The position numbers and the translations under genes were made by a program. Under the pieces are notes generated by a model, which saw only the letters and a list, made by a program, of their open reading frames with translations, did no database searches and was not told the DNA's origin. A DNA stretch of 37,019 nucleotides from Massiliimicrobium timonense (GTDB taxonomy: Bacteria; Bacillota_I; Bacilli_A; Erysipelotrichales; Coprobacillaceae): assembly GCF_002160865.1 (NCBI RefSeq), contig NZ_NFLJ01000034.1:1-37019 (forward strand), read 5' to 3'. Position 1 is the stretch's first letter. Each line of letters starts with the position of its first letter. Of this stretch, positions 15,862 to 36,467 are shown piece by piece.

Positions 15862-16605
15862 ATGTATAAGTTTTATTTAGATAAGATTTTATTACCTATT
15901 ACCCCTTCTAAAGTTGAAACCACAATAAAAAATCAGAACAAAACACTTGTTCTGATCAATGAAGGGGAAATAAACATTTTAAAAAATGCTGGTCTAACTG
16001 AAATTACCTTTGATGCATTATTACCGCTTATTAATGATTATCCTTTTGCAGTTTATCAGGGGGATTTCCAGACCGCTGGTTATTTCCTGGAAAAAATTGA
16101 AAAACTAAAGACATCAAAAGAACCGTTTCAGTTCATCATAACAAGAAGATTTGAAAATAAACTGCTTTTCAGTACCAATATGAAGGTATCTTTAGAAGAT
16201 TATACAATTACAGAAGATGCAACGGAAGGTGACTGTATAAAAGTAAGCATAAACTTAAAACAGTATCGTGATTATGGTACAAAAACGGTTGATATAAAAC
16301 TTGATCCATACAAACCTAAACCAATTATTAAGGTGACTACTGAAAGATCTAAAACAACTACCACTACTACTAACAAAACTTCCAGCAGTTCAGCCGCTAA
16401 AAAAGCGGTCACAAAAGGCTGTACAGTTATTCTAAACGGTTATCTGTTCAGAGATAGCTATGGTAATGGCAGAGGTCAATACAGAAGCAATTTTAAAGGC
16501 AAGATAAATTTTATCAATACCAAAGGTTCTCACCCATACCACGTTACAACTATGAGTGGCGGGTGGCAAGGCTGGGTACTGGCTTCAGCGGTTCAGGTCG
16601 TTTAA
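15862..16605 (+). CDS. XkdP-like baseplate/hub-associated protein with C-terminal SH3-like domain
   Basis: A 247-residue protein in the XkdP position. The N-terminal part (KFYLDKILLPITPSKVETTI, QTAGYFLEKIEKLKTSKEP) matches XkdP-like proteins. These usually end in a LysM domain; here a Thr/Ser-rich linker (around residues 160-182) leads to a bacterial-SH3-like segment (VILNGYLFRDSYGNGRG ... GWQGWVLASAVQVV). Both are wall-binding folds, so the role may be conserved. The ATG at 15862 has a perfect GGAGGGGG (15848-15855) ribosome site inside the tape-measure gene end. Confidence 0.82.
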   Translation: MYKFYLDKILLPITPSKVETTIKNQNKTLVLINEGEINILKNAGLTEITFDALLPLINDYPFAVYQGDFQTAGYFLEKIEKLKTSKEPFQFIITRRFENKLLFSTNMKVSLEDYTITEDATEGDCIKVSINLKQYRDYGTKTVDIKLDPYKPKPIIKVTTERSKTTTTTTNKTSSSSAAKKAVTKGCTVILNGYLFRDSYGNGRGQYRSNFKGKINFINTKGSHPYHVTTMSGGWQGWVLASAVQVV

Positions 16606-16606
16606 T

Positions 16607-17566
16607 ATGGCAGTAGAATTAATTATACAGAATGGTACAAAAGCATACTTACCAGTTGTAGAAGATACTATTGAATGGACTACTGAAAGAAAGGGAGTAC
16701 CTGGAAAATTAGCTTTTAAAATTTTAAATGATGGTCATATTGATATACAAGAAGGTAATGCAGTAAGATTCAAATATGATGATAAAAATGTATTTTTTGG
16801 TTTTATGTTTGAAAAAGGAACTGATAAATCTAAAGAAGTATCAATAACTTGTTATGATCAGTTAAGATACTTGAAAAATAAAGATACTTATGTTTATACT
16901 AATAAAACTGCTAAAGGATTTATAAAAATGGTTGCTGATGATTTTGGTTTAAGATGCGGTAATTTAATTGAAACGTCATGGACGATTTCAAACAGAGTTG
17001 AAGAAAATAAAACCTTATTTGATATGTTTCAGAACGCTTTGGATATAACACTTCAAAATACTGGTGAACTGTTTGTTTTATATGATGATTTTGGAAAATT
17101 AACACTTGATCATATTCAGAATATGAGAATACCATTACTTATTGATGAAGAAACAAGTGAAGATTATGATTATAAATCAAGTATTGATGGTGAAGTTTAT
17201 AACCAGATTAAATTAACATATGATAATGAAAAAACTGGTAAAAGAGAAGTTTATATATCTAAAGATAGCAATCATATTAATGAATGGGGTTTACTTCAAT
17301 ATTATGAAACGATAGATGAAAATACAAATGGAAAGAGTAAGGCAAATGCCTTACTTTCTTTGTATAACAAAAAAATAAAGAGTTTAAAAATCAAGAATGT
17401 TTTAGGTGATGTTCGTGTTAGAGGTGGCTCAAGTGTAATTGTAAGACTAACCTTGATGGATATAAAAATAGATAGTTTTATGATAGTAGAAAAAGCAAAA
17501 CATACTTTTACCAATAATTCACATCTTATGGATTTGGAACTGAAAGGCGGTGTTTTCAATGGCTGA
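16607..17566 (+). CDS. xkdQ: Baseplate hub protein (XkdQ-like)
   Basis: A 319-residue protein resembling the XkdQ/gp27-like hub: IEWTTERKGVPGKLAFKIL at the start, NAVRFKYDDKNVFFGFMFEK, and a late RGGSSVIVRLTLMDIKIDSFMIV strand region. It sits at the centre of the baseplate under the tail tube. I use the ATG at 16607, right after the upstream stop; reading from 16556 would force a 50-base overlap. The ribosome site is poor, so coupled translation is likely. Confidence 0.85.
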   Translation: MAVELIIQNGTKAYLPVVEDTIEWTTERKGVPGKLAFKILNDGHIDIQEGNAVRFKYDDKNVFFGFMFEKGTDKSKEVSITCYDQLRYLKNKDTYVYTNKTAKGFIKMVADDFGLRCGNLIETSWTISNRVEENKTLFDMFQNALDITLQNTGELFVLYDDFGKLTLDHIQNMRIPLLIDEETSEDYDYKSSIDGEVYNQIKLTYDNEKTGKREVYISKDSNHINEWGLLQYYETIDENTNGKSKANALLSLYNKKIKSLKIKNVLGDVRVRGGSSVIVRLTLMDIKIDSFMIVEKAKHTFTNNSHLMDLELKGGVFNG

Positions 17567-18053
17567 TATGCACGAAGTGATTAAAAAAATAGCATTAGCA
17601 GTTGTTGAAGAAAGTAAACCTACTGCGGTTCTTTTTGGTGAGGTTACAAGTGTATCACCATTGAAAATCACTATTGACCAGAAACTTACATTAGATGAAA
17701 ATTTTCTAATTCTTACAAACAATGTAAGAGATCATAATGTAGATATGACTTTTGATTTCAGTACCAAATCAAAAACATTAGATGCAGATCATAAACACAA
17801 TGCACAGTCAAGTGGCGGTATAAGTGTTACATCTAAATTAAACCCAGAACAGCCAGGTACAGTAATAGAAAATGAAGTGACAAATACATCTTCTACTTCT
17901 ATTAGTGAAACTAAAATTGATTTAACTCATAGTCATGATATTAAAGGTAGAACAACTGTAACAGTTCATTATGGATTGAAAAAAGGTGAAAAGGTTATAT
18001 TGATAAGATATAACAAAGGTCAAAAATTTTTAGTTTTAGATAGGGTGGTGTAA
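17559..18053 (+). CDS. xkdR: Baseplate protein, DUF2577 (XkdR-like)
   Basis: A 164-residue, beta-rich protein (MADMHEVIKKIALAVVEESKP, then PTAVLFGEVTSVSPLKITID) in the DUF2577 position after the hub. His-containing loops (DADHKHNAQSSGG and LTHSHDIKGR) resemble metal-binding or OB-fold spike loops. The start at ATG 17559 overlaps the hub gene by 8 bases with an AAAGGCGG ribosome site. It ends in a TAATG overlap with the next gene. Confidence 0.83.
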   Translation: MADMHEVIKKIALAVVEESKPTAVLFGEVTSVSPLKITIDQKLTLDENFLILTNNVRDHNVDMTFDFSTKSKTLDADHKHNAQSSGGISVTSKLNPEQPGTVIENEVTNTSSTSISETKIDLTHSHDIKGRTTVTVHYGLKKGEKVILIRYNKGQKFLVLDRVV

Positions 18054-18463
18054 TGATGTTACCAAATCAATATATTGATCTAAGCGAAAGTGATTTTGAA
18101 ATTGAAGAAGAACAGAACACTGAAACTTATAAAATGATTATTCCATTACAAATTATAAATGGCAAAACTGATGAACAAGATGCAATGATACAGGCAATCT
18201 ATAAAATATTGAATACAGAACGTTATGCATACCCTATTTACAGTGATAACTATGGTATAGAACTTATTGATCTCATTGGTGAAGATGCTGAATGGGTATG
18301 TGCTGAACTTCAAAGAAGAATAGAAGAAGCTTTATATCAAGATGAAAGAATAAAAGAAATAAATAATTTTGATTTTACTATCGAAGATAACAAAGTTCAT
18401 GTTAGCTTTACTGTTTATACTGTTTATGGGTATACAACAATATCAAAGGGGGTGGAGTATTAA
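18053..18463 (+). CDS. xkdS: Baseplate wedge-type protein, DUF2634 (XkdS-like)
   Basis: A 136-residue protein with the gp25/DUF2634 pattern: NGKTDEQDAMIQAIYKILNT, RYAYPIYSDNYGIELIDLIG, and a C-terminal beta region. gp25-like proteins anchor sheath polymerisation to the baseplate. The start ATG shares its A with the upstream TAA and is immediately followed by a second ATG; GGGTGG upstream serves as ribosome site. Confidence 0.87.
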   Translation: MMLPNQYIDLSESDFEIEEEQNTETYKMIIPLQIINGKTDEQDAMIQAIYKILNTERYAYPIYSDNYGIELIDLIGEDAEWVCAELQRRIEEALYQDERIKEINNFDFTIEDNKVHVSFTVYTVYGYTTISKGVEY

Positions 18464-18464
18464 C

Positions 18465-19532
18465 ATGGCGTATGAAAATTACAGTTTTGAAAACATATTA
18501 AACAGAATGCTTGAATATGTGAGAGATAAAAACAATTCCATTGATACAAGAGAGGGTTCTGTTATTTATGATGGTGTAGCACCAGCATCTATTGAGTTTC
18601 AGAATTTATTTATGGAAATGAACGCTTTATTAAATGATACTTTTGCTGATACTGCTTCAAGAGATTATTTAATATTAAGATGTGCGGAAAGAGGTTTAAC
18701 ACCAGAAGAAGCCACCCATGCCATTCTAAAAGGTGAATTTAATATAAATGTTCCAATTGGTTCACGTTTCTCATTAAATGATCTAAATTATACCGTCACT
18801 GAAAAAATCAGTGAGTGTATATTTAAATTGCAGTGTGAAACTGCTGGTACAGTAGGCAATTCTTATTTTGGTACAATGATACCTATTGAGTATATAGACG
18901 GTTTAGAAACATGTACTTTAACGGAATTATTAATTCCAGGTGAAGATGAAGAAGATACAGAAGTATTAAGACAAAGATATTTTGCCAGTTTTGATACTCG
19001 TGCTTTTGGCGGGAATATCAAAGATTATCTTGAAAAAACAAATGGTATACAGGGTGTTGGAAATACAAAAGTTGAACCAGTATGGAATGGTGGCGGTACA
19101 GTTCTTCTAGTTATTATTGATTCAACTTACAGAAAAGCTACACAAACATTAGTACAACTGGTTAAAGATACCATTGATCCAGTTCCATATGGTACTGGTC
19201 AAGGATTAGCACCAATTGGACATGTAGTAACTGTTAAGACCGTTGATGAAGTTCTAATCAATATCACATCAACATTTACATTCGACCCGTCATATACATT
19301 TGAAAGAGTTAAAGAACAGATAGAAACAACATTAAATGATTATATGCTGTCTTTAAGAAAAACATGGGCAAATTCAACAAATTTAATAGTTCGTATCTCA
19401 CAGATAGAAACAAGATTACTAAACATTGAAGGTATTATTGATATTGCAAATACAAGAATTAACGGTAAATATAGCAATTTAGAATTAGATGAATATGAAA
19501 TTCCAATTTTCAATTCTATTGTAGATGGCTAG
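18465..19532 (+). CDS. xkdT: Baseplate J-like protein (XkdT-like)
   Basis: A 355-residue baseplate wedge protein. Family landmarks include the IDTREGSVIYDGVAPASIEF start, YLILRCAERGLTPEEAT, and RTGTDEDTEV-like PGEDEEDTEVLRQRYF followed by AFGGNIKDYLEKTNGIQGV. ATG 18465 has a very strong AAAGGGGGTGGAG site; the longer frame from 18369 lies inside the previous gene. It overlaps the next gene by 8 bases. Confidence 0.92.
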   Translation: MAYENYSFENILNRMLEYVRDKNNSIDTREGSVIYDGVAPASIEFQNLFMEMNALLNDTFADTASRDYLILRCAERGLTPEEATHAILKGEFNINVPIGSRFSLNDLNYTVTEKISECIFKLQCETAGTVGNSYFGTMIPIEYIDGLETCTLTELLIPGEDEEDTEVLRQRYFASFDTRAFGGNIKDYLEKTNGIQGVGNTKVEPVWNGGGTVLLVIIDSTYRKATQTLVQLVKDTIDPVPYGTGQGLAPIGHVVTVKTVDEVLINITSTFTFDPSYTFERVKEQIETTLNDYMLSLRKTWANSTNLIVRISQIETRLLNIEGIIDIANTRINGKYSNLELDEYEIPIFNSIVDG

Positions 19533-20307
19533 AAAAATTAATATCATTGAATATTTACCAGAGTTCTTACAGAAATATCTTCAATTGAAACTGATATGTG
19601 AAGCTGAAAATGTTGTTTTTCAAGAAGCACTCAATGAAATAGGCATCATTAATGATAATCAGTTTATTCTAACTGCAAATAGTCAAGGCTTAAAGAGGTT
19701 TGAAAAGATGTTTGGTATTGTAGCATCTAATAATGACAGTCTGGACGTTAGAAGGGCAAAACTGTTATTAAAATGGAATGATAACATAGCATATACCTAT
19801 ACTAATTTTTTAAAAAATTTAGATATTATATGCGGTGAAAAAAATTATATAACAGAAGAACATTTTAGTGATTATTTATTAAAAATAGTCACTTTTTTAT
19901 ATGGTTATGGTCAAGTCAATCAAGTTGAAGAACTGATCAAAACAATGATACCATGCAATATCGTTATAAAAAGTGAAAATAAGATGAATTTTGATATTTG
20001 TGGCAGTGCTGAAATAAAATGTAGCTACTCACGTATTGATGTAGTGAATAACAGTGATGATCATAAATATTCATTCAATGTAAACTGTCAAGCTGTTGTT
20101 AAAGGTGGATATGTTGAAACAGAAGTTATCAATGCAGATGATAGCATCAAACATAATATTACAAACAATAGTAACTTATATGTATTAACTTCAAATAACA
20201 GTATAGAAACAATTAATAACAGTGATGATATAAAAGAAAATATCAATATAGAAATGGAAAATGAATTTATTGGTATTACTAATTTTATTGAAAAAACAGA
20301 AAGGTAG
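19525..20307 (+). CDS. xkdU: Tail protein DUF2313 (XkdU/YmfQ-like)
   Basis: A 260-residue protein. The first 150 residues follow the XkdU/YmfQ pattern (NIIEYLPEFLQKYLQLKLI, GLKRFEKMFGI, SLDVRRAKLLLKWN). The rest is an Asn/Ser-rich beta extension. It likely connects the baseplate to the fibre. The start overlaps the baseplate J gene. The fibre gene follows after 9 bases. Confidence 0.85.
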   Translation: MARKINIIEYLPEFLQKYLQLKLICEAENVVFQEALNEIGIINDNQFILTANSQGLKRFEKMFGIVASNNDSLDVRRAKLLLKWNDNIAYTYTNFLKNLDIICGEKNYITEEHFSDYLLKIVTFLYGYGQVNQVEELIKTMIPCNIVIKSENKMNFDICGSAEIKCSYSRIDVVNNSDDHKYSFNVNCQAVVKGGYVETEVINADDSIKHNITNNSNLYVLTSNNSIETINNSDDIKENINIEMENEFIGITNFIEKTER

Positions 20308-20316
20308 GAAATATAA

Positions 20317-22110
20317 ATGTCACAATTTAATAGCATTGTAATTACAAAAAAAGGACAGGCTTTGATGGCTAAAATGTTGGCTGGAACTGGTAATGTTAAA
20401 TTTACAAAAATTGCTACAAGCACAACTGAATATCAAGACAGCCAGTTAGAAAATTTAACATCATTATCCAATATTAAACAAAATCAAAGTATCAGTAAAA
20501 TTACAAGACAAAATGATGTAGCAGTAAAAATTGAAGCAGCAATTGACAATAAAAATTTAGAAACTGGATATTATATTAAAACCGTTGGTATTTATGCACA
20601 AGACCCAAATGACGGTGAAATATTATATGCAGTTATGACTGCTAATGTAGCTGGTTGGTTACCACCATACAATGGTTTAGGTATTTCAAGCTGTATGTTC
20701 AATCTAACTGTAACGGTTGGTAACTCATCAAATGTTTCATTAACTGTATCAACTGGAGCAGTAGCAACGGTTAATGACATTCAAAATTTACAAAATCAAA
20801 TTACCACACTACAAAGTTATATTGGTTTCAGTGATGAAGATATTTATGGTGTAGAAGTTGATTTTACAAATAAAGTTTTTACCAGATTAGCAGGTGCAGA
20901 AAATTTAGTAGCTGGTGAAGATTTTGATGATATTGCACCATGGAACAGAAGAAGATGTAACGTTACTGATGATGGTAAAGTGGTAGCTTATTATGGTGAT
21001 AGCGGATATACAGAAACTGGAAAATTAACCAGTGCTATTACAATAGAAAGTGGTAAATATGCTGGTACTTATGCAGTTGGAACAAAAGTACAAGTTATGG
21101 TGGAACAGCCAAAATTTTACTATAAAGTAGTTCCTTTGAAATTAGAACCTATTACTACTGGTTATGGTTTTCATATGAGAAAGGCAAGATATTATATCTC
21201 ATCTACACCAAAAGAAGGCTTTAAATTACACCCAGCTTTTGAAGTAAATGGCAGAGAATTAGAAAACATCTATTTAAGTGCATATGAAGGGTCATTATAT
21301 GATGATTCAGCAAATGCATATATTTTAAATGATGAACAGGTAGCTGATTTCTCAAATGATTTACTTTCAAGTATTGCAAATGCAAAACCAGCAAGTGGAC
21401 TAACACAAAATTTGAATAGAACTAATATTAGATCACTTGCACATAATCGTGGTGACGGTTGGGAAATTTCATACGCATCAACAGTTTCAGCAACACAGTT
21501 ACTATTTTTAATTGAGTATGCATCTTTCAATATGCAATCCAAACTTGGCAATGGTGTAACTACTAAAACTGATGATGGAAGTACAAGCATGACAGAAATA
21601 ACTGGTGCTACAACAAATCTTGGTAATGGAAGTGGTTCAGTAACAAACAGCAATGAATTTAATGTTGTAACTTACAGAGGTGAAGAAAACTTCTTTGGTA
21701 ATATTTGGACTTGGATTGACGGTATGAACGTTGATAGAAACAGTACAAGTGAACCACAAGTTCATGATATTTATATTGCAAATTATAATTTTGCTGATGG
21801 TAGTAAGAACTCATCTTATGAAAAAGTTAATTTTCAAGCATGTTTAACAGAAGGTTATACAAGTGCTTTTGGATATGATGAAAATTTTGATTGGTTATTT
21901 GTACCAACAGAAGCTTTAGGAAATTCTAGTGTACCGGTTGGTGACTATTATTACAGAAACGCAAGTTATAACGGTATGTTGGCTGCCCTATTGGGTGGCG
22001 GCTGGCATTACGGTGTTACGGCTGGGGGCTTCTATTTGGATTTGCGTAATACCGCTTCTGGTCGTACTCGTGCTCTCGGCGGTCGCTTGGTGTATGTACC
22101 GCAAAATTAA
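20317..22110 (+). CDS. Tail fibre/receptor-binding protein, DGR target with C-terminal variable domain
   Basis: A 597-residue protein. Residues 1-160 resemble the phage tail-fibre N-terminal domain that attaches to the baseplate (FNSIVITKKGQALMAKMLAG, GYYIKTVGIYAQDPNDGE). A short coiled coil follows (about 155-170), then a beta-rich central part. The C-terminus (about 490-597) has the C-type-lectin/formylglycine-enzyme-like pattern used by DGR targets, ending GRTRALGGRLVYVPQN. Residues 556-592 are encoded by the variable repeat, whose differences from the template repeat all lie at template adenines. Variation hits residues 561, 562, 564-566, 568, 570, 571, 575, 577, 582, 584, 586, 588, 589 and 592, while W563, F572, Y573 and L574 stay fixed. 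It probably binds a host surface receptor. Confidence 0.92.
   Translation: MSQFNSIVITKKGQALMAKMLAGTGNVKFTKIATSTTEYQDSQLENLTSLSNIKQNQSISKITRQNDVAVKIEAAIDNKNLETGYYIKTVGIYAQDPNDGEILYAVMTANVAGWLPPYNGLGISSCMFNLTVTVGNSSNVSLTVSTGAVATVNDIQNLQNQITTLQSYIGFSDEDIYGVEVDFTNKVFTRLAGAENLVAGEDFDDIAPWNRRRCNVTDDGKVVAYYGDSGYTETGKLTSAITIESGKYAGTYAVGTKVQVMVEQPKFYYKVVPLKLEPITTGYGFHMRKARYYISSTPKEGFKLHPAFEVNGRELENIYLSAYEGSLYDDSANAYILNDEQVADFSNDLLSSIANAKPASGLTQNLNRTNIRSLAHNRGDGWEISYASTVSATQLLFLIEYASFNMQSKLGNGVTTKTDDGSTSMTEITGATTNLGNGSGSVTNSNEFNVVTYRGEENFFGNIWTWIDGMNVDRNSTSEPQVHDIYIANYNFADGSKNSSYEKVNFQACLTEGYTSAFGYDENFDWLFVPTEALGNSSVPVGDYYYRNASYNGMLAALLGGGWHYGVTAGGFYLDLRNTASGRTRALGGRLVYVPQN
21984..22092 (+). repeat. 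DGR variable repeat (VR)
   Basis: The 109 bp align without gaps to the template repeat at +215. They differ at 23 positions, every one an adenine in the template (16 to G, 5 to C, 2 to T), while ten template adenines and all 76 non-adenine bases are unchanged. The 3' end, GTCGCTTGG (22082-22090), is the conserved, adenine-free part expected of an initiation-of-mutagenic-homing site. Confidence 0.95.
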
Positions 22111-22127
22111 TCTTAAATAAAATTAAA

Positions 22128-22166
22128 TATATAACATGGGTGCAATAGTGCGATTGTTGTTATATA
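22128..22166 (+). other. Hairpin just downstream of the VR
   Basis: A perfect 9-bp stem, TATATAACA (22128-22136) / TGTTATATA (22158-22166), with a 21-base loop that has its own inner CAAT/ATTG pairing. It begins 35 bases after the VR end. DGR targets often have a hairpin or cruciform just downstream of VR that aids homing, though the known ones are GC-rich and closer. Alternatively it is part of the template RNA fold. Confidence 0.6.
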
Positions 22167-22198
22167 GCTTTGCACATGGTGAAGAAAAAAAGATTTTT

Positions 22199-22307
22199 TG
22201 CCCTATTAGGTAGCAACTGGAATAACAGTGTTAAAGCTAGGAGCTTCTATTTGAATTTGAATAATACCGCTTCTAATCGTAATCGTAATCTCAGCAGTCG
22301 CTTGGAA
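22199..22307 (+). repeat. DGR template repeat (TR)
   Basis: The invariant donor copy, in the same orientation as VR and RT. It contains 33 adenines, concentrated in AAY/AGY codons when read in the target frame (nine Asn codons, four Ser AGY codons), so that adenine mutagenesis gives wide amino-acid choice without stops. Shared sequence with VR begins at TGCCCTATT and ends at GTCGCTTGG plus two diversified bases. Confidence 0.95.
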
Positions 22308-22462
22308 CATGCAGTTAAAAATAAATGAGTAAAAATTATTGCACCCTACCGCTTGGTAAAATAGAAAAATCAAGTAAGTTGTATTGGTAGGTTTTTGAAA
22401 GTTTATTTTCAATTTCTCGAAGATTTGACTTCATATGTGCATACAAAGAAAAGGGGTATATT

Positions 22463-23527
22463 GTGAAACGTGTAGGCTATCTTTATGAACAGATATATTC
22501 TATGGATAATTTAAGATTAGCACATAAAAACGCTAGGAAAAACAAGACATGGTATAAAGAAGTTAAGATGATTGATACCAACCCAGATTACTATTTAAAA
22601 ATATTACAGGACAGTTTAATCAATCATACCTATAAAACTTCTGAATATGAAACTTTCATCAAAAAAGAAAATGGTAAGGAAAGACTAATTTATAAATTAC
22701 CATATTTCCCTGATCGAGTATGTCAATGGGCTATCCTTCAAGTGATAGAACCAATGTTAATAAAATATTTTACAACCAACACTTATTCAGCAATTCCAGG
22801 AAGAGGAACACATAAATGTCTATATGATGTAATTAATGCAATCAAAACTGATACTTATGGTTGTCAATACTGTTTAAAAATAGATGCCAAAAAGTATTAC
22901 CCATCTATTAATCATGATATTCTAAAAAGTATTTATGCCAGATTGTTCAAGGACAAAGAACTTCTAGACTTGATATATGAAATCATTGATTCAACTGATG
23001 GTGATACTGGTATACCTATTGGTAATTATTTATCACAGTATAGCGGTAATTTGTATTTATCACCGTTAGATCACTGGTTAAAAGAACAGAAACACATTAA
23101 GCATTTATTTAGATATATGGACGATATAGTCATTTTTGGAAGTTCAAAAGAAGAACTTCATAATTTAAGAATTGAAATGACTTCATTTATGCAATCTAAA
23201 TTAAAACTGGAAATGAAAGATAATTATCAAGTCTTTCCAACTTATGTTAGGGGTGTTGATTTTGTTGGTTATCGTATCTTTTTGGATTATGTGTTATTAA
23301 GAAAATCAACTTGTATTAATTTCAAAAGGAAAATGAATGAAATTAATAAAAAGCGGTTACGTGGTGAAATTATAAGCTATTCTGATTACTGCTCATTCAA
23401 TTCCTATAAAGGTATTTTGAAACACTGTAATTCATACAGGCTTATTGAGAAATACATGAAACCTTTAGAAAAATACGTTGATTCATATTATAAATTTTAT
23501 ATAAAGAAAGGTGGAAATTTGACATGA
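22463..23527 (+). CDS. DGR reverse transcriptase
   Basis: A 354-residue RT starting at GTG 22463 with an AAAAGGGG site (22449-22456). The catalytic motifs are in order: motif A KIDAKKYYPSIN (139-150, Asp141), motif B-region IPIGNYLSQYSGN (184-196), YMDD (218-221) and VDFVGYRI (265-272). The GNYLSQ form, with SQ where retroviral and group II RTs have SP, is the hallmark of DGR RTs. There is no maturase, endonuclease or integrase domain; length is typical for DGRs. It copies the template RNA into adenine-mutated cDNA that replaces VR. The gene ends in an ATGA overlap with the next gene. Confidence 0.95.
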   Translation: MKRVGYLYEQIYSMDNLRLAHKNARKNKTWYKEVKMIDTNPDYYLKILQDSLINHTYKTSEYETFIKKENGKERLIYKLPYFPDRVCQWAILQVIEPMLIKYFTTNTYSAIPGRGTHKCLYDVINAIKTDTYGCQYCLKIDAKKYYPSINHDILKSIYARLFKDKELLDLIYEIIDSTDGDTGIPIGNYLSQYSGNLYLSPLDHWLKEQKHIKHLFRYMDDIVIFGSSKEELHNLRIEMTSFMQSKLKLEMKDNYQVFPTYVRGVDFVGYRIFLDYVLLRKSTCINFKRKMNEINKKRLRGEIISYSDYCSFNSYKGILKHCNSYRLIEKYMKPLEKYVDSYYKFYIKKGGNLT

Positions 23528-23778
23528 TCAATCATGGAAAAGTAAGAAGTACAGAAAAACCAGAAAATATATTAATTGATGAAAAAAGTGTTTGGGTTCA
23601 TACAAATATAGAACCTATATGTGAAACAATTGATGAACATGAATTTAATGGTTATGAATATGATATGATTCAGTATGATAAAGATGAATATATCAAATAC
23701 ATTACTGAAAATCAAAATCAGCAGATTACAGATGTTCAATTAGCATTAGTTGAGATCTATGAAAGTATGGGGGTATAA
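23524..23778 (+). CDS. Conserved small phage protein of the tail/lysis junction
   Basis: An 84-residue acidic protein (HGKVRSTEKPENILIDEKSVWVHTNIE ... ENQNQQITDVQLALVEIYESMGV). Similar proteins are widespread between fibre and holin genes of clostridial and other Firmicutes phages, but I know no function. The last 25 residues resemble the recurring ITDxQLAxxExYE tail. The ATG overlaps the RT stop. It is not Avd-like: too short and not a four-helix pattern. Confidence 0.75.
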   Translation: MINHGKVRSTEKPENILIDEKSVWVHTNIEPICETIDEHEFNGYEYDMIQYDKDEYIKYITENQNQQITDVQLALVEIYESMGV

Positions 23779-23781
23779 ACT

Positions 23782-23898
23782 ATGGCAAAGGTTTATTATG
23801 AATTGATCATCAAAGGTTTAAAGACAATTGATGATGTTCCAGAGAAATTAAAGGAACAGGTTCAAGAACTATTGGATAGTGATTCTAATGATAATTAG
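23782..23898 (+). CDS. CD1375-like small phage protein, copy 1
   Basis: A 38-residue protein, MAKVYYELIIKGLKTIDD followed by VPEKLKEQVQELLDS. It belongs to the family of roughly 40-residue proteins with YYxLIxKGxKTxxxVPE that occurs upstream of holin genes. GGGGG two codons before the stop of the preceding gene is the ribosome site. It is followed by a second, related gene. Confidence 0.7.
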   Translation: MAKVYYELIIKGLKTIDDVPEKLKEQVQELLDSDSNDN

Positions 23899-23941
23899 AA
23901 TTTTACTATATATTCTACTTCACATGAAAGGGGTGAAAGAA

Positions 23942-24067
23942 ATGGCTGTAATCTATGCAACTTTGATTGTCAAGGGAAAGAAAACATTTGATCAAGTTCC
24001 AGACAAAATCAAAGAACAGGTGAAAGAAGTGCTAATTGATTTGGAAGTACCAGAATTAGCAGAATAA
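23942..24067 (+). CDS. CD1375-like small phage protein, copy 2
   Basis: A 41-residue protein, MAVIYATLIVKGKKTFDQ then VPDKIKEQVKEVLIDLE, clearly similar to the preceding 38-residue protein (shared Y..LI.KG.KT...VP.K.KEQV.E). ATG 23942 is preceded by AAAGGGGTG (23928-23936). The longer frame from 23879 would add an unrelated hydrophobic extension, so I reject it. A terminator follows at once. Confidence 0.72.
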   Translation: MAVIYATLIVKGKKTFDQVPDKIKEQVKEVLIDLEVPELAE

Positions 24068-24099
24068 AAAGGGCTTATTTTTAAGCCTTTTTTATTTTT
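24067..24099 (+). terminator. Rho-independent terminator before the lysis genes
   Basis: The stem AAAAGGGCTTA (24067-24077) pairs with TAAGCCTTTT (24082-24091), loop of four T, followed by a long T-rich run. It separates the fibre/DGR segment from the holin/endolysin genes. Confidence 0.85.
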
Positions 24100-24117
24100 A
24101 GAAAGGAGCAAATAAAA

Positions 24118-24459
24118 ATGGATATGATTGAAATTATAAAAACAGTTTTAATGATTATTTTTGGTGGATTAGCTATTTATTTCAAGTGCAATGTAAATTT
24201 ACAAAAGAAAATCACTGAAATTTCAGCTAAAGCCATTGTTTTTATCAAAGATGCAGAAGAAATATATGCTGACGGAACAAAACAAGGCGGTCAACGTTTT
24301 GAATGGGTGGTAAATGAATTATATAAATTGATTCCATCACCATTTAATAAGATTATTACAAAATCAATGATTGCTGAAATTGTTCAGTCAACATTTGATG
24401 AAATCAAAGAATATACAAAAATTAAATTAGATAAATTAACAGATACAAAAGAAAATTAG
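24118..24459 (+). CDS. Holin, LLH family
   Basis: A 113-residue protein with one N-terminal membrane segment (IIKTVLMIIFGGLAIYFKC) and a helical, charged remainder containing FIKDAEEIYADGTKQGGQRFEWVV, the signature of the LLH phage holin family. It forms membrane lesions that release the endolysin. Strong ribosome site GAAAGGAG. Confidence 0.85.
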   Translation: MDMIEIIKTVLMIIFGGLAIYFKCNVNLQKKITEISAKAIVFIKDAEEIYADGTKQGGQRFEWVVNELYKLIPSPFNKIITKSMIAEIVQSTFDEIKEYTKIKLDKLTDTKEN

Positions 24460-24472
24460 GAAGGGTGACTAT

Positions 24473-24763
24473 ATGAAAGAATTATTAATGACAACATATA
24501 CGATTTCCCTTCCTATTATTTTAGGCTATATCGTATGGATTCTAAAAGAACAGAAAAAATCACGTGATGCAAACTGTGAAGGTACTAAATGTTTGCTAAG
24601 GGTTAAATTAATTGAATATCATGACCGTTACATGATGGAAAAATCAATTCCATCATATGCACTTGATAACTGGGTTGAAATGTACAGTGCTTATGAAGGT
24701 TTAGGCGGTAATGGTATGGTTAAGGGAATGAATGAAGAAATTCATAGATTACCAATCAAATAA
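24473..24763 (+). CDS. Lysis-module membrane protein (holin-like)
   Basis: A 96-residue protein with one N-terminal membrane segment (TTYTISLPIILGYIVWIL), followed by a soluble part with EQKKSRDANCEGTKCLLRVKLIEYHDRYM and YALDNWVEMYSAYEGLGGNGM. This family is common next to endolysins in streptococcal and clostridial phages. Between an LLH holin and the endolysin it may be a second holin or antiholin; the exact role is not known to me. Confidence 0.7.
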   Translation: MKELLMTTYTISLPIILGYIVWILKEQKKSRDANCEGTKCLLRVKLIEYHDRYMMEKSIPSYALDNWVEMYSAYEGLGGNGMVKGMNEEIHRLPIK

Positions 24764-24780
24764 GAAAGGAAGATACAAAA

Positions 24781-25887
24781 ATGAAAGAATATGGATTAGA
24801 TTTAAGTAAACACAACGGTTCATTAGATTTTAATGCAATCAAAAACAATGGAAACACATTTGTTATTTTGAGGGCTGGATATGGTGTTAGCGGAACTAAA
24901 GACCCTAAATTTGATGAATATTATGCTGCTGCTAAAAGTGCTGGTTTAAAAGTTGGTGCTTACTGGTATAGTTACGCTTTAAATGCTGATCATGCAAAAA
25001 CAGAAGCTAAAAATATGTTAGAAATCATCAAAGGGAAAACATTTGAATATCCAGTTTTTATTGATATGGAGGACGCGGACGGATATAAAAAGAAAAATGG
25101 TATGCCATCAAATTCTACCTTGGCATCTATTTGTAATGTTTTTTGTGAATATATTGAAAGCAAGGATTATTATGTTGGTATCTATGCAAGTGAAAGCTGG
25201 TTTAATAATCAGTTAAAAACTGTTTCAAGTGCTTATGACAAATGGGTAGCCAACTGGGGAACAAATAATGGAACATTACAATCAGATAAATCAAATGCCT
25301 ATAAATTGCATCAGTTCACATCAAATTATTCATTAAATGGTAAGAGATTTGATAGAAATATTTCATATCATGATTATGAAACAACAATTAAAAATGCAAA
25401 ACTTAATGGATTTGGTGAAACTTCAACACAAACACCAGTAAATACACCTTCTGGTTCTACTTTAGATTTAGTTGCTGGTGTCATGCAGAAAAAATACGGT
25501 GATGGTGAAGCCAGAAAAGCAGCATTAGGAACACGTTATGATGAAGTTCAAAGTATAATCAATCATATTGCTAATGCTAGTATTGATACACTTGTTAATG
25601 AAGTAAAAGCTGGTAAATATGGAAATAACCCAATTAGAAAAACTGTTTTAGGTTCACGTTACCAGGAAGTACAAGACAAGATTAATAACGAAGATAAATC
25701 TTCAATTAAAGAAGGTCAAAGCGTTAGAATTAAAAACGGTGCGAAGGATTTAAATACTAAAACAAAGTATGCATCATGGGTTTATAAATTATCTTTTAAA
25801 GTCATTCAAGTAAAACAAAACCGTGTTGTTTTTGGGAATTCTAAAAATGAAATCATTGGTGCAACTGATATTTCTAACTGTTACTAA
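24781..25887 (+). CDS. Endolysin: GH25 lysozyme with two CW_7 repeats and C-terminal SH3-like domain
   Basis: A 368-residue peptidoglycan muramidase. The GH25 domain covers residues 1-205, with the catalytic-site acids Asp7 (GLDLSKHNG), Asp95 and Glu97 (FIDMED) and Asp191. A Thr/Pro linker follows. Two CW_7 (Cpl-7-like) wall-binding repeats lie at about 228-261 and 267-301, each with a KYG ... R...LG.RY.EVQ core. An SH3-like segment forms residues 306-368. No signal peptide, so release depends on holin. Strong AAGGAAG ribosome site. It is the last recognisable prophage gene. Confidence 0.93.
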   Translation: MKEYGLDLSKHNGSLDFNAIKNNGNTFVILRAGYGVSGTKDPKFDEYYAAAKSAGLKVGAYWYSYALNADHAKTEAKNMLEIIKGKTFEYPVFIDMEDADGYKKKNGMPSNSTLASICNVFCEYIESKDYYVGIYASESWFNNQLKTVSSAYDKWVANWGTNNGTLQSDKSNAYKLHQFTSNYSLNGKRFDRNISYHDYETTIKNAKLNGFGETSTQTPVNTPSGSTLDLVAGVMQKKYGDGEARKAALGTRYDEVQSIINHIANASIDTLVNEVKAGKYGNNPIRKTVLGSRYQEVQDKINNEDKSSIKEGQSVRIKNGAKDLNTKTKYASWVYKLSFKVIQVKQNRVVFGNSKNEIIGATDISNCY

Positions 25888-25896
25888 CTTGTTACT
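25879..25896 (-). repeat. Inverted variant of the bipartite AGTAACA repeat
   Basis: TGTTACT-AACT-TGTTACT overlaps the endolysin stop codon. On the - strand it reads AGTAACA-N4-AGTAACA, the same architecture (11-bp period) as the two copies around terL, with a different 4-base centre. Confidence 0.6.
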
Positions 25897-26032
25897 AGTA
25901 GAATGTAATTTTATATAATCTTATATAACTGAACAGTTCAAAAATCAGCGTAATATCATCTTATATAATGTTATGAAATTGAACTAATTTATGTTATAAT
26001 ATCATTAACAATAACAAGAAGGAGTGAAGCTT
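25888..26032. other. Prophage/host junction region with TTATATAA repeats
   Basis: This AT-rich gap has TTATATAA at 25911-25918, 25921-25928 and 25961-25968. The last two are part of an 11-bp direct repeat ATCTTATATAA (25918-25928 and 25958-25968, 40 bp apart). The right attachment site should be here or close by, because the endolysin is the last phage gene and the next gene is host-like. The core cannot be defined without the left end. Confidence 0.45.
25992..26000 (+). promoter_or_regulatory. Extended -10 promoter for the CMD-family gene
   Basis: TGTTATAAT (TGn plus a perfect -10 box) lies 33 bases before the ATG. No good -35 box at 17 bp, as is common with extended -10 promoters. Confidence 0.55.

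Positions 26033-33055: not shown

Positions 33056-33057
<2 letters not shown>
33028..33057 (-). terminator. Terminator of the intact GH1 gene
   Basis: The 10-bp stem AGAACTTGTC (33032-33041) / GACAAGTTCT (33048-33057) with a 6-nt loop; leftward T-run follows. The TAG stop codon overlaps the stem base. Confidence 0.88.
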
Positions 33058-34555
<1,498 letters not shown>

Positions 34556-35242
34556 TCACTTAAATCTTCACCATTAGAAGCAATGACTTTTTTATACCAA
34601 TAGAAAGAATCTTTTCTATATCTATCTAAAGTTTTTAAATCAAATTCATCTCTATCAACATAAATAAATCCATAACGTTTAACCATACCTTCATGAGTAG
34701 AAATTAAATCAACAGCAGACCAAGGACAATATCCTAACATTTCACATCCATCGCTAATTGCTAAACGAACTTGTGAGATATGATCTTGATAATATTTGAT
34801 ACGATATTGATCATGAACTTTTCCATCTTCTGTTAATGTATCATAAGCTCCTAAACCATTTTCAGTGACTAATAATGGCAAACGATATCTTGAATACATT
34901 TCACGAATCGTTGCTCTAAATCCTTGAGGATCAATTTCCCAACCGAATTCAGTTGTTGGTAAGTTTGGATTTCTAAATCCTTTATACATTCCAGTAATGC
35001 CTTTAGAAGTCTGTTGATCAGCAGCACCAGATAAATCTTCTGTCCCATCAGACCACTGGCAAGTAGCAGTATTGTAGTAGTTGAAACCAATGAAATCTGG
35101 ATGTCCATTTTTTAAAGCTTCTGCGTCACCTTCAGCAAATTCAGGTGTTGCATCATTTTCTTCTAACCATGCCCAAACAATGTTGTTGTAAACACCATAA
35201 ACGGCCATATCTAAATATAACCAGTTTCTAATAGCGTTGAAG

Positions 35243-36467
<1,225 letters not shown>

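Follow-up and report, generated by a model that had tools for sequence, protein, structure and literature searches.

Diversity-generating retroelements (DGRs) have been surveyed in phages of gut Firmicutes, Bacteroidetes and Proteobacteria, where they fall into clades 1, 4 and 6 (PMC8144416). In Bordetella phage BPP-1, the folded DGR spacer brings in the RT-Avd complex and serves to prime cDNA synthesis (PMC12875486), and the DGR of crAssphage LMMB has been published as a lineage 3 element without Avd (PMC7290462). Because the RT of the latter belongs to the same group as the RT analyzed here, absence of Avd is not new, and a gut-phage DGR with a tail-fibre target and no Avd is a known kind of element. 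The stretch of DNA analyzed here (hereafter, the window; 37,019 nucleotides) comes from a gut bacterium of Erysipelotrichales type and includes a tailed prophage with a complete DGR, in which the fibre gene and its VR are followed by TR, a structured spacer RNA and RT.

The cassette and its fibre target

The window covers the late region of the prophage, with genes for terminase, tape measure, Baseplate_J, a Mu gp48-like protein, the fibre, RT and a GH25 lysin, and host genes from about 26.0 kb on. Near the far end of the window, a putative beta-glucosidase-like gene, named from its sequence (34552-36467, minus strand), adjoins a near copy (33056-34549) and is broken up into a pair of overlapping frames (35589-36467 and 34552-35619).

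All features of the cassette lie on the plus strand. The target gene (20317-22110) encodes a 597-aa tail fibre with an N-terminal Phage_tail_fib domain (Pfam PF12571) and a match to PHROG 5302, a tail protein family. No solved relative of the fibre was found by sequence, and a structure was modeled from 20 sequences (mean pLDDT 80). In this model, the C-terminal part (about residues 211-597), which carries VR, is a predicted C-type-lectin-like domain that folds as the known DGR variable proteins TaqVP and Mtd do: it matches TaqVP over 268 residues (Z 25.4, 2.9 A) and TvpA and Mtd with Z of about 13; for the N-terminal part, the matches are to domains of phage tails and fibres (Z 6-10).

The original prediction described a complete DGR aimed at the fibre tip, with VR at 21984-22092 and TR at 22199-22307, and realignment returned these coordinates and the offset of 215 exactly. 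As predicted, all 23 mismatches in the ungapped 109-bp alignment fall on TR adenines (16 A>G, 5 A>C, 2 A>T), which make up 33 of the 109 TR bases (hypergeometric p 4e-16). The 3' border of the alignment was set just before the first non-adenine mismatch (C/T at TR position 22308), a choice that favours the adenine-only claim, yet the adenine excess is far beyond any effect of the border. TR, taken to be non-coding, indeed lies outside any listed ORF, and the RT frame contains both IGNYLSQ and YMDD, matching the two motifs first noted. VR ends 18 bases before the last base of the stop codon. Searching the 2.78-Mb genome with a pattern that reads A as N and allows up to 3 mismatches yielded no third TR/VR copy and no second target (reversed control, 0). 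Nearly all relatives have TR-VR pairs with adenine-directed mismatches.

From about 22074, VR is constant in the two lysogens compared below and nearly so in relatives despite adenines in TR, and this segment is therefore the likely IMH (22074-22098, borders approximate; CGGCGGTCGCTTG-like in relatives). Its differences from TR are mostly at template adenines, and this constant 3' end unlike TR, in the sister prophages and relatives alike, points to a putative IMH/IMH* pair, with IMH* at the 3' end of TR. Between TR and VR, 17 codons differ, changing 16 residues (codon 559 is silent). The predicted 16 altered residues of the presumed receptor-binding surface thus stand as differences between TR and VR, but residues 588, 589 and 592 cannot be counted as diversified because they lie inside the constant IMH. 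Y573 had been listed among the unchanged scaffold residues and does not belong there: its codon is TAT in TR and relatives have C, S, T or L at this position, so that it is mutable.

The spacer between VR and TR contains an inverted repeat, TATATAACA...TGTTATATA (22128-22166), which was considered as a BPP-1-like stem-loop following the IMH but is not conserved in the spacers of relatives; its role is doubtful. The same spacer carries TGGGTGCAAT at 22137-22146, and a TGGGCAA-like motif is similarly placed before TR in many relatives. Promoter and terminator predictions in the cassette showed no excess over shuffled sequences, and no promoter stands out.

RT lineage and spacer RNA

The RT (22463-23527; 354 aa, GTG start) matches PHROG 1423 (E 3e-121), and its best solved relative is the BPP-1 RT (8ub7). 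The original prediction had named the RT phylogeny as one test of itself and the VRs of related strains, considered below, as another. In a maximum likelihood tree of 38 RTs with 200 bootstrap trees, a single branch (support 94/89, 96% of bootstrap trees) separates the DGR RTs, those of BPP-1 and the window among them, from the group II intron and retron RTs. The RT is absent from four genomes of the window's genus.

Within this tree, the RTs of BPP-1, BalMu-1 and VP58.5 cluster together (91/80), and they are the only references with Avd over the cut-off, all three serving as positive controls in the same search. No Avd over the cut-off was found in the window's genome (NF033474; the best match, with E 0.038, lies within a 776-aa frame), nor in any record searched from the window's RT group (several virus records are fragments); Avd-like matches in host genomes of Bacteroidota are weak and fall below the cut-off. 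A divergent accessory protein may be invisible to the Avd profile. By the definition of lineage 3 (PMC7290462), the order target-VR-TR-RT, the lack of avd over the cut-off and the grouping of the RT with that of crAssphage LMMB make the window's DGR a member of this known Avd-less target-TR-RT lineage.

The TR-RT spacer contains the Rfam RNA RT-17 (RF03020; 22342-22446), which scores 50.0 bits against a gathering threshold of 40.4 bits. In 14 of the 15 close relatives, RT-17 lies just upstream of RT, the fifteenth being cut off inside RT, and it precedes RT also in further relatives. We aligned 20 sequences, and 8 of the 13 base pairs show changes on both sides, with five GC/AU and eight CG/GC exchanges in helix 1 alone; 94% of the alignment cells are paired, compared to 15-49% when the partners are slid, a comparison that favours the structure given that it was derived from the same alignment. 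Folded as a single sequence, the spacer is not better than shuffled sequences (z 0.25). In BPP-1, the Phage_DGR RNA (RF03022) occupies the same place between TR and RT. Judging from position and covariation, RT-17 would be the equivalent of the BPP-1 spacer RNA (Sp) in the Avd-less lineage. Two other Rfam motifs are found directly before RT in other phages: RT-14 (L085, 2834-2977) in Bacillus phage BalMu-1 and RT-18 (L084, 702-777) in Lactobacillus phage LBR48. Several Rfam motifs named "RT-n" could be spacer RNAs of DGRs.

Neighbouring bases and the fate of template adenines

For 56 distinct VRs from the window's side of the RT tree, with the last 24 bases excluded, we counted the VR bases that correspond to template adenines according to the 3' neighbour in TR. 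These TRs, being of common ancestry, are not fully independent, and one VR may sum several homings; with these limits, the VR base is nearly always G before G (193 of 205; A 12, C 0, T 0) and mostly G before C (G 145, A 44, C 7, T 7), and a broad mixture is found before A (A 223, G 194, T 146, C 73) and before T (A 306, G 142, C 92, T 55). After thinning to 32 dissimilar TRs, adenines before G still yielded G 92 and A 9. The three Avd-bearing references have two AG sites, too few for comparison.

The excess of G at adenines before G or C could be attributed to selection on the protein (for Gly, Ala or Arg), or to G residues that were never overwritten, rather than to the RT. This explanation gains from the fact that many such sites encode conserved Gly in the family, from the shared descent of the TRs, and from the constancy of the 3' IMH in any case. 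At four-fold degenerate sites, however, with the last 24 bases likewise left out, adenines before G correspond to G in 41 of 43 cases (A 2), compared to 4 of 19 before T (A 10, T 3, C 2; p 5e-9), so that protein selection alone is insufficient to account for A>G before G. Furthermore, in six comparisons of close relatives, some with a common member, all 25 AG sites have G in both members, whereas most sites before A or T are not the same in the two and those flanking AG vary on either side. We therefore regard selection or lack of overwriting as rather unlikely to be the source of the pattern.

A further-reaching explanation, to which we give a little short of an even chance, is that RTs of the Avd-less lineage insert C almost deterministically at template adenines before G, and mostly so before C, and misinsert broadly before A or T. 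The context within TR would then programme which of the adenines are diversified, and RT-17 would act as the RT cofactor without Avd. For BPP-1 in E. coli, the context NAC was found to favour G insertion (A>C), and slippage was proposed (PMC12875486). In the present data, slippage could account for A>G before G but not for A>G before C, and the rule measured for BPP-1 (NAC to A>C) differs from the neighbour rule described here. The neighbour rule, as a statement on how context affects the misreading of adenines, lends itself to direct testing.

Sister prophages and comparison with known systems

A nearly identical prophage is present in Thomasclavelia sp. MAG.139 (contig L031; Coprobacillaceae, Erysipelotrichales). 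The identity extends from 16465 to 26002 of the window and then stops; over these about 9.5 kb, the two prophages differ by 18 substitutions and one 2-base insertion. Of the substitutions, 14 are in VR (22000-22073), all at template adenines (p 5e-9) and none elsewhere in VR, which bears out the second test named in advance. TR and RT are identical, the spacer RNA is intact and identical, and the four substitutions outside VR are missense. Ten residues of the fibre tip differ between the two lysogens (562, 564, 565, 575, 577, 578, 579, 582, 584 and 586). At the right prophage end, about 26002, both copies share TTATGTTATAATAT, and the host gene downstream of it is not the same in the two.

Beyond the prophage, host DNA of the L031 contig aligns to another contig of the window's genome at 73% identity, and the figure for the window's host flank against another contig of the MAG's genome is 78%; therefore, the two lysogens belong to different species, with the host of the L031 prophage assigned from one contig and not from binning. 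The pair amounts to a natural experiment, with one phage in two bacterial species and the fibre tip as almost the sole difference in the stretch compared. Two alleles in lysogens of two species have the look expected of re-targeting, as far as one pair can suggest a cause. Because near-identical prophages differ almost only at the rewritten letters, the cassette appears to have been recently at work, a conclusion drawn for this phage from a single sister pair, together with relatives.

The DGR might instead have been active in the past and be silent in this lysogen, with the VR pattern as a relic. Sequence is the sole source of data here, and some relatives have indeed lost the DGR, retaining RT remnants of 34-104 residues. 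Nevertheless, the two sisters have the same intact RT, TR and spacer RNA while VR has changed against a background of four other substitutions in about 9.5 kb, which makes a silent relic improbable compared to recent activity.

Two viral contigs, L150 and L165 (about 1993-2500), share a large RT deletion that leaves ~34 RT residues and cuts the spacer RNA. Over 3.4 kb, they differ at 15 positions only, each of them a VR substitution at a template adenine, and no other RT was found on either contig. Possibly, an RT was supplied in trans, or the diversification preceded a repeated deletion.

The RT stop codon is overlapped by an 84-aa ORF (23524-23778), which had no match among phage records. 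Its location next to the DGR RT in 61 of the 77 testable loci could be taken to indicate a new accessory protein replacing Avd. In RT-less loci, however, the ORF directly follows the fibre gene, that is, it is linked to the fibre, and we rejected it as an Avd-like accessory, a role that seems highly improbable; it is best treated as a fibre-linked partner outside the DGR proper. Because the fibre gene and this ORF adjoin in RT-less relatives, the compact TR-RNA-RT unit can be described as inserted between them.

Overall, TR and VR, the RT clade, the predicted target fold and the sister prophage bear out the DGR as originally proposed, and we are highly confident that this tailed prophage of a gut bacterium carries a complete and recently active member of the Avd-less target-TR-RT lineage. 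Ordinary drift or exchange of fibre alleles, for all that phage fibres are generally known to recombine, is barely conceivable as the source of the VR differences when 23 of 23 TR/VR and 14 of 14 VR/VR differences are at template adenines, a pattern that swaps with unrelated alleles would not respect.

In the mechanism that we propose for this DGR, TR and the RT-17 RNA would be transcribed ahead of RT, and the RNA downstream of TR, to judge by its position and covariation, would recruit and probably prime the RT, as Sp does in BPP-1. The substitution pattern suggests that the RT copies TR, misreading adenines whose fate would be set by the 3' neighbour, and that the cDNA replaces VR upstream of the constant IMH. 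About ten residues of the fibre tip, C-type-lectin-like in the model, change between the sister phages; the altered tip presumably binds the receptor, and the host bound may change.

Compared to BPP-1, the window's DGR is alike in its adenine-directed VR, the predicted C-type-lectin fold of the tail target, the RT clade and a structured RNA between TR and RT; it differs in having RT-17 and no Avd over the cut-off, where BPP-1 has Avd and the Phage_DGR RNA. The closest RT in the phage collection is that of Psychrobacillus phage Perkons (MT325768; 54% identity over 99% of the length), with a fibre-like gene upstream and a TR-VR pair found here; Perkons is a much larger phage (137 kb), and its record names only the RT and hypothetical proteins. 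The crAssphage LMMB DGR (PMC7290462) shares the target-VR-TR-RT order, the tail-fibre target, the lack of avd and the half of the RT tree, but it comes from another phage group, has no RT-17 at the gathering score, and its RT is 39% identical over 93% of the length. The window's spacer RNA exceeds the gathering threshold of Rfam RT-17, which is described by Rfam only as an sRNA named after the RT, whereas here a TR is shown to lie just upstream. No link between RT-17 and DGRs was found in the literature searched. Within this literature, the sister pair in two species, RT-17 as a DGR spacer RNA and the neighbour rule are new, and the second of these suggests a role, in the Avd-less lineage, for an Rfam RNA known here by its neighbour alone.
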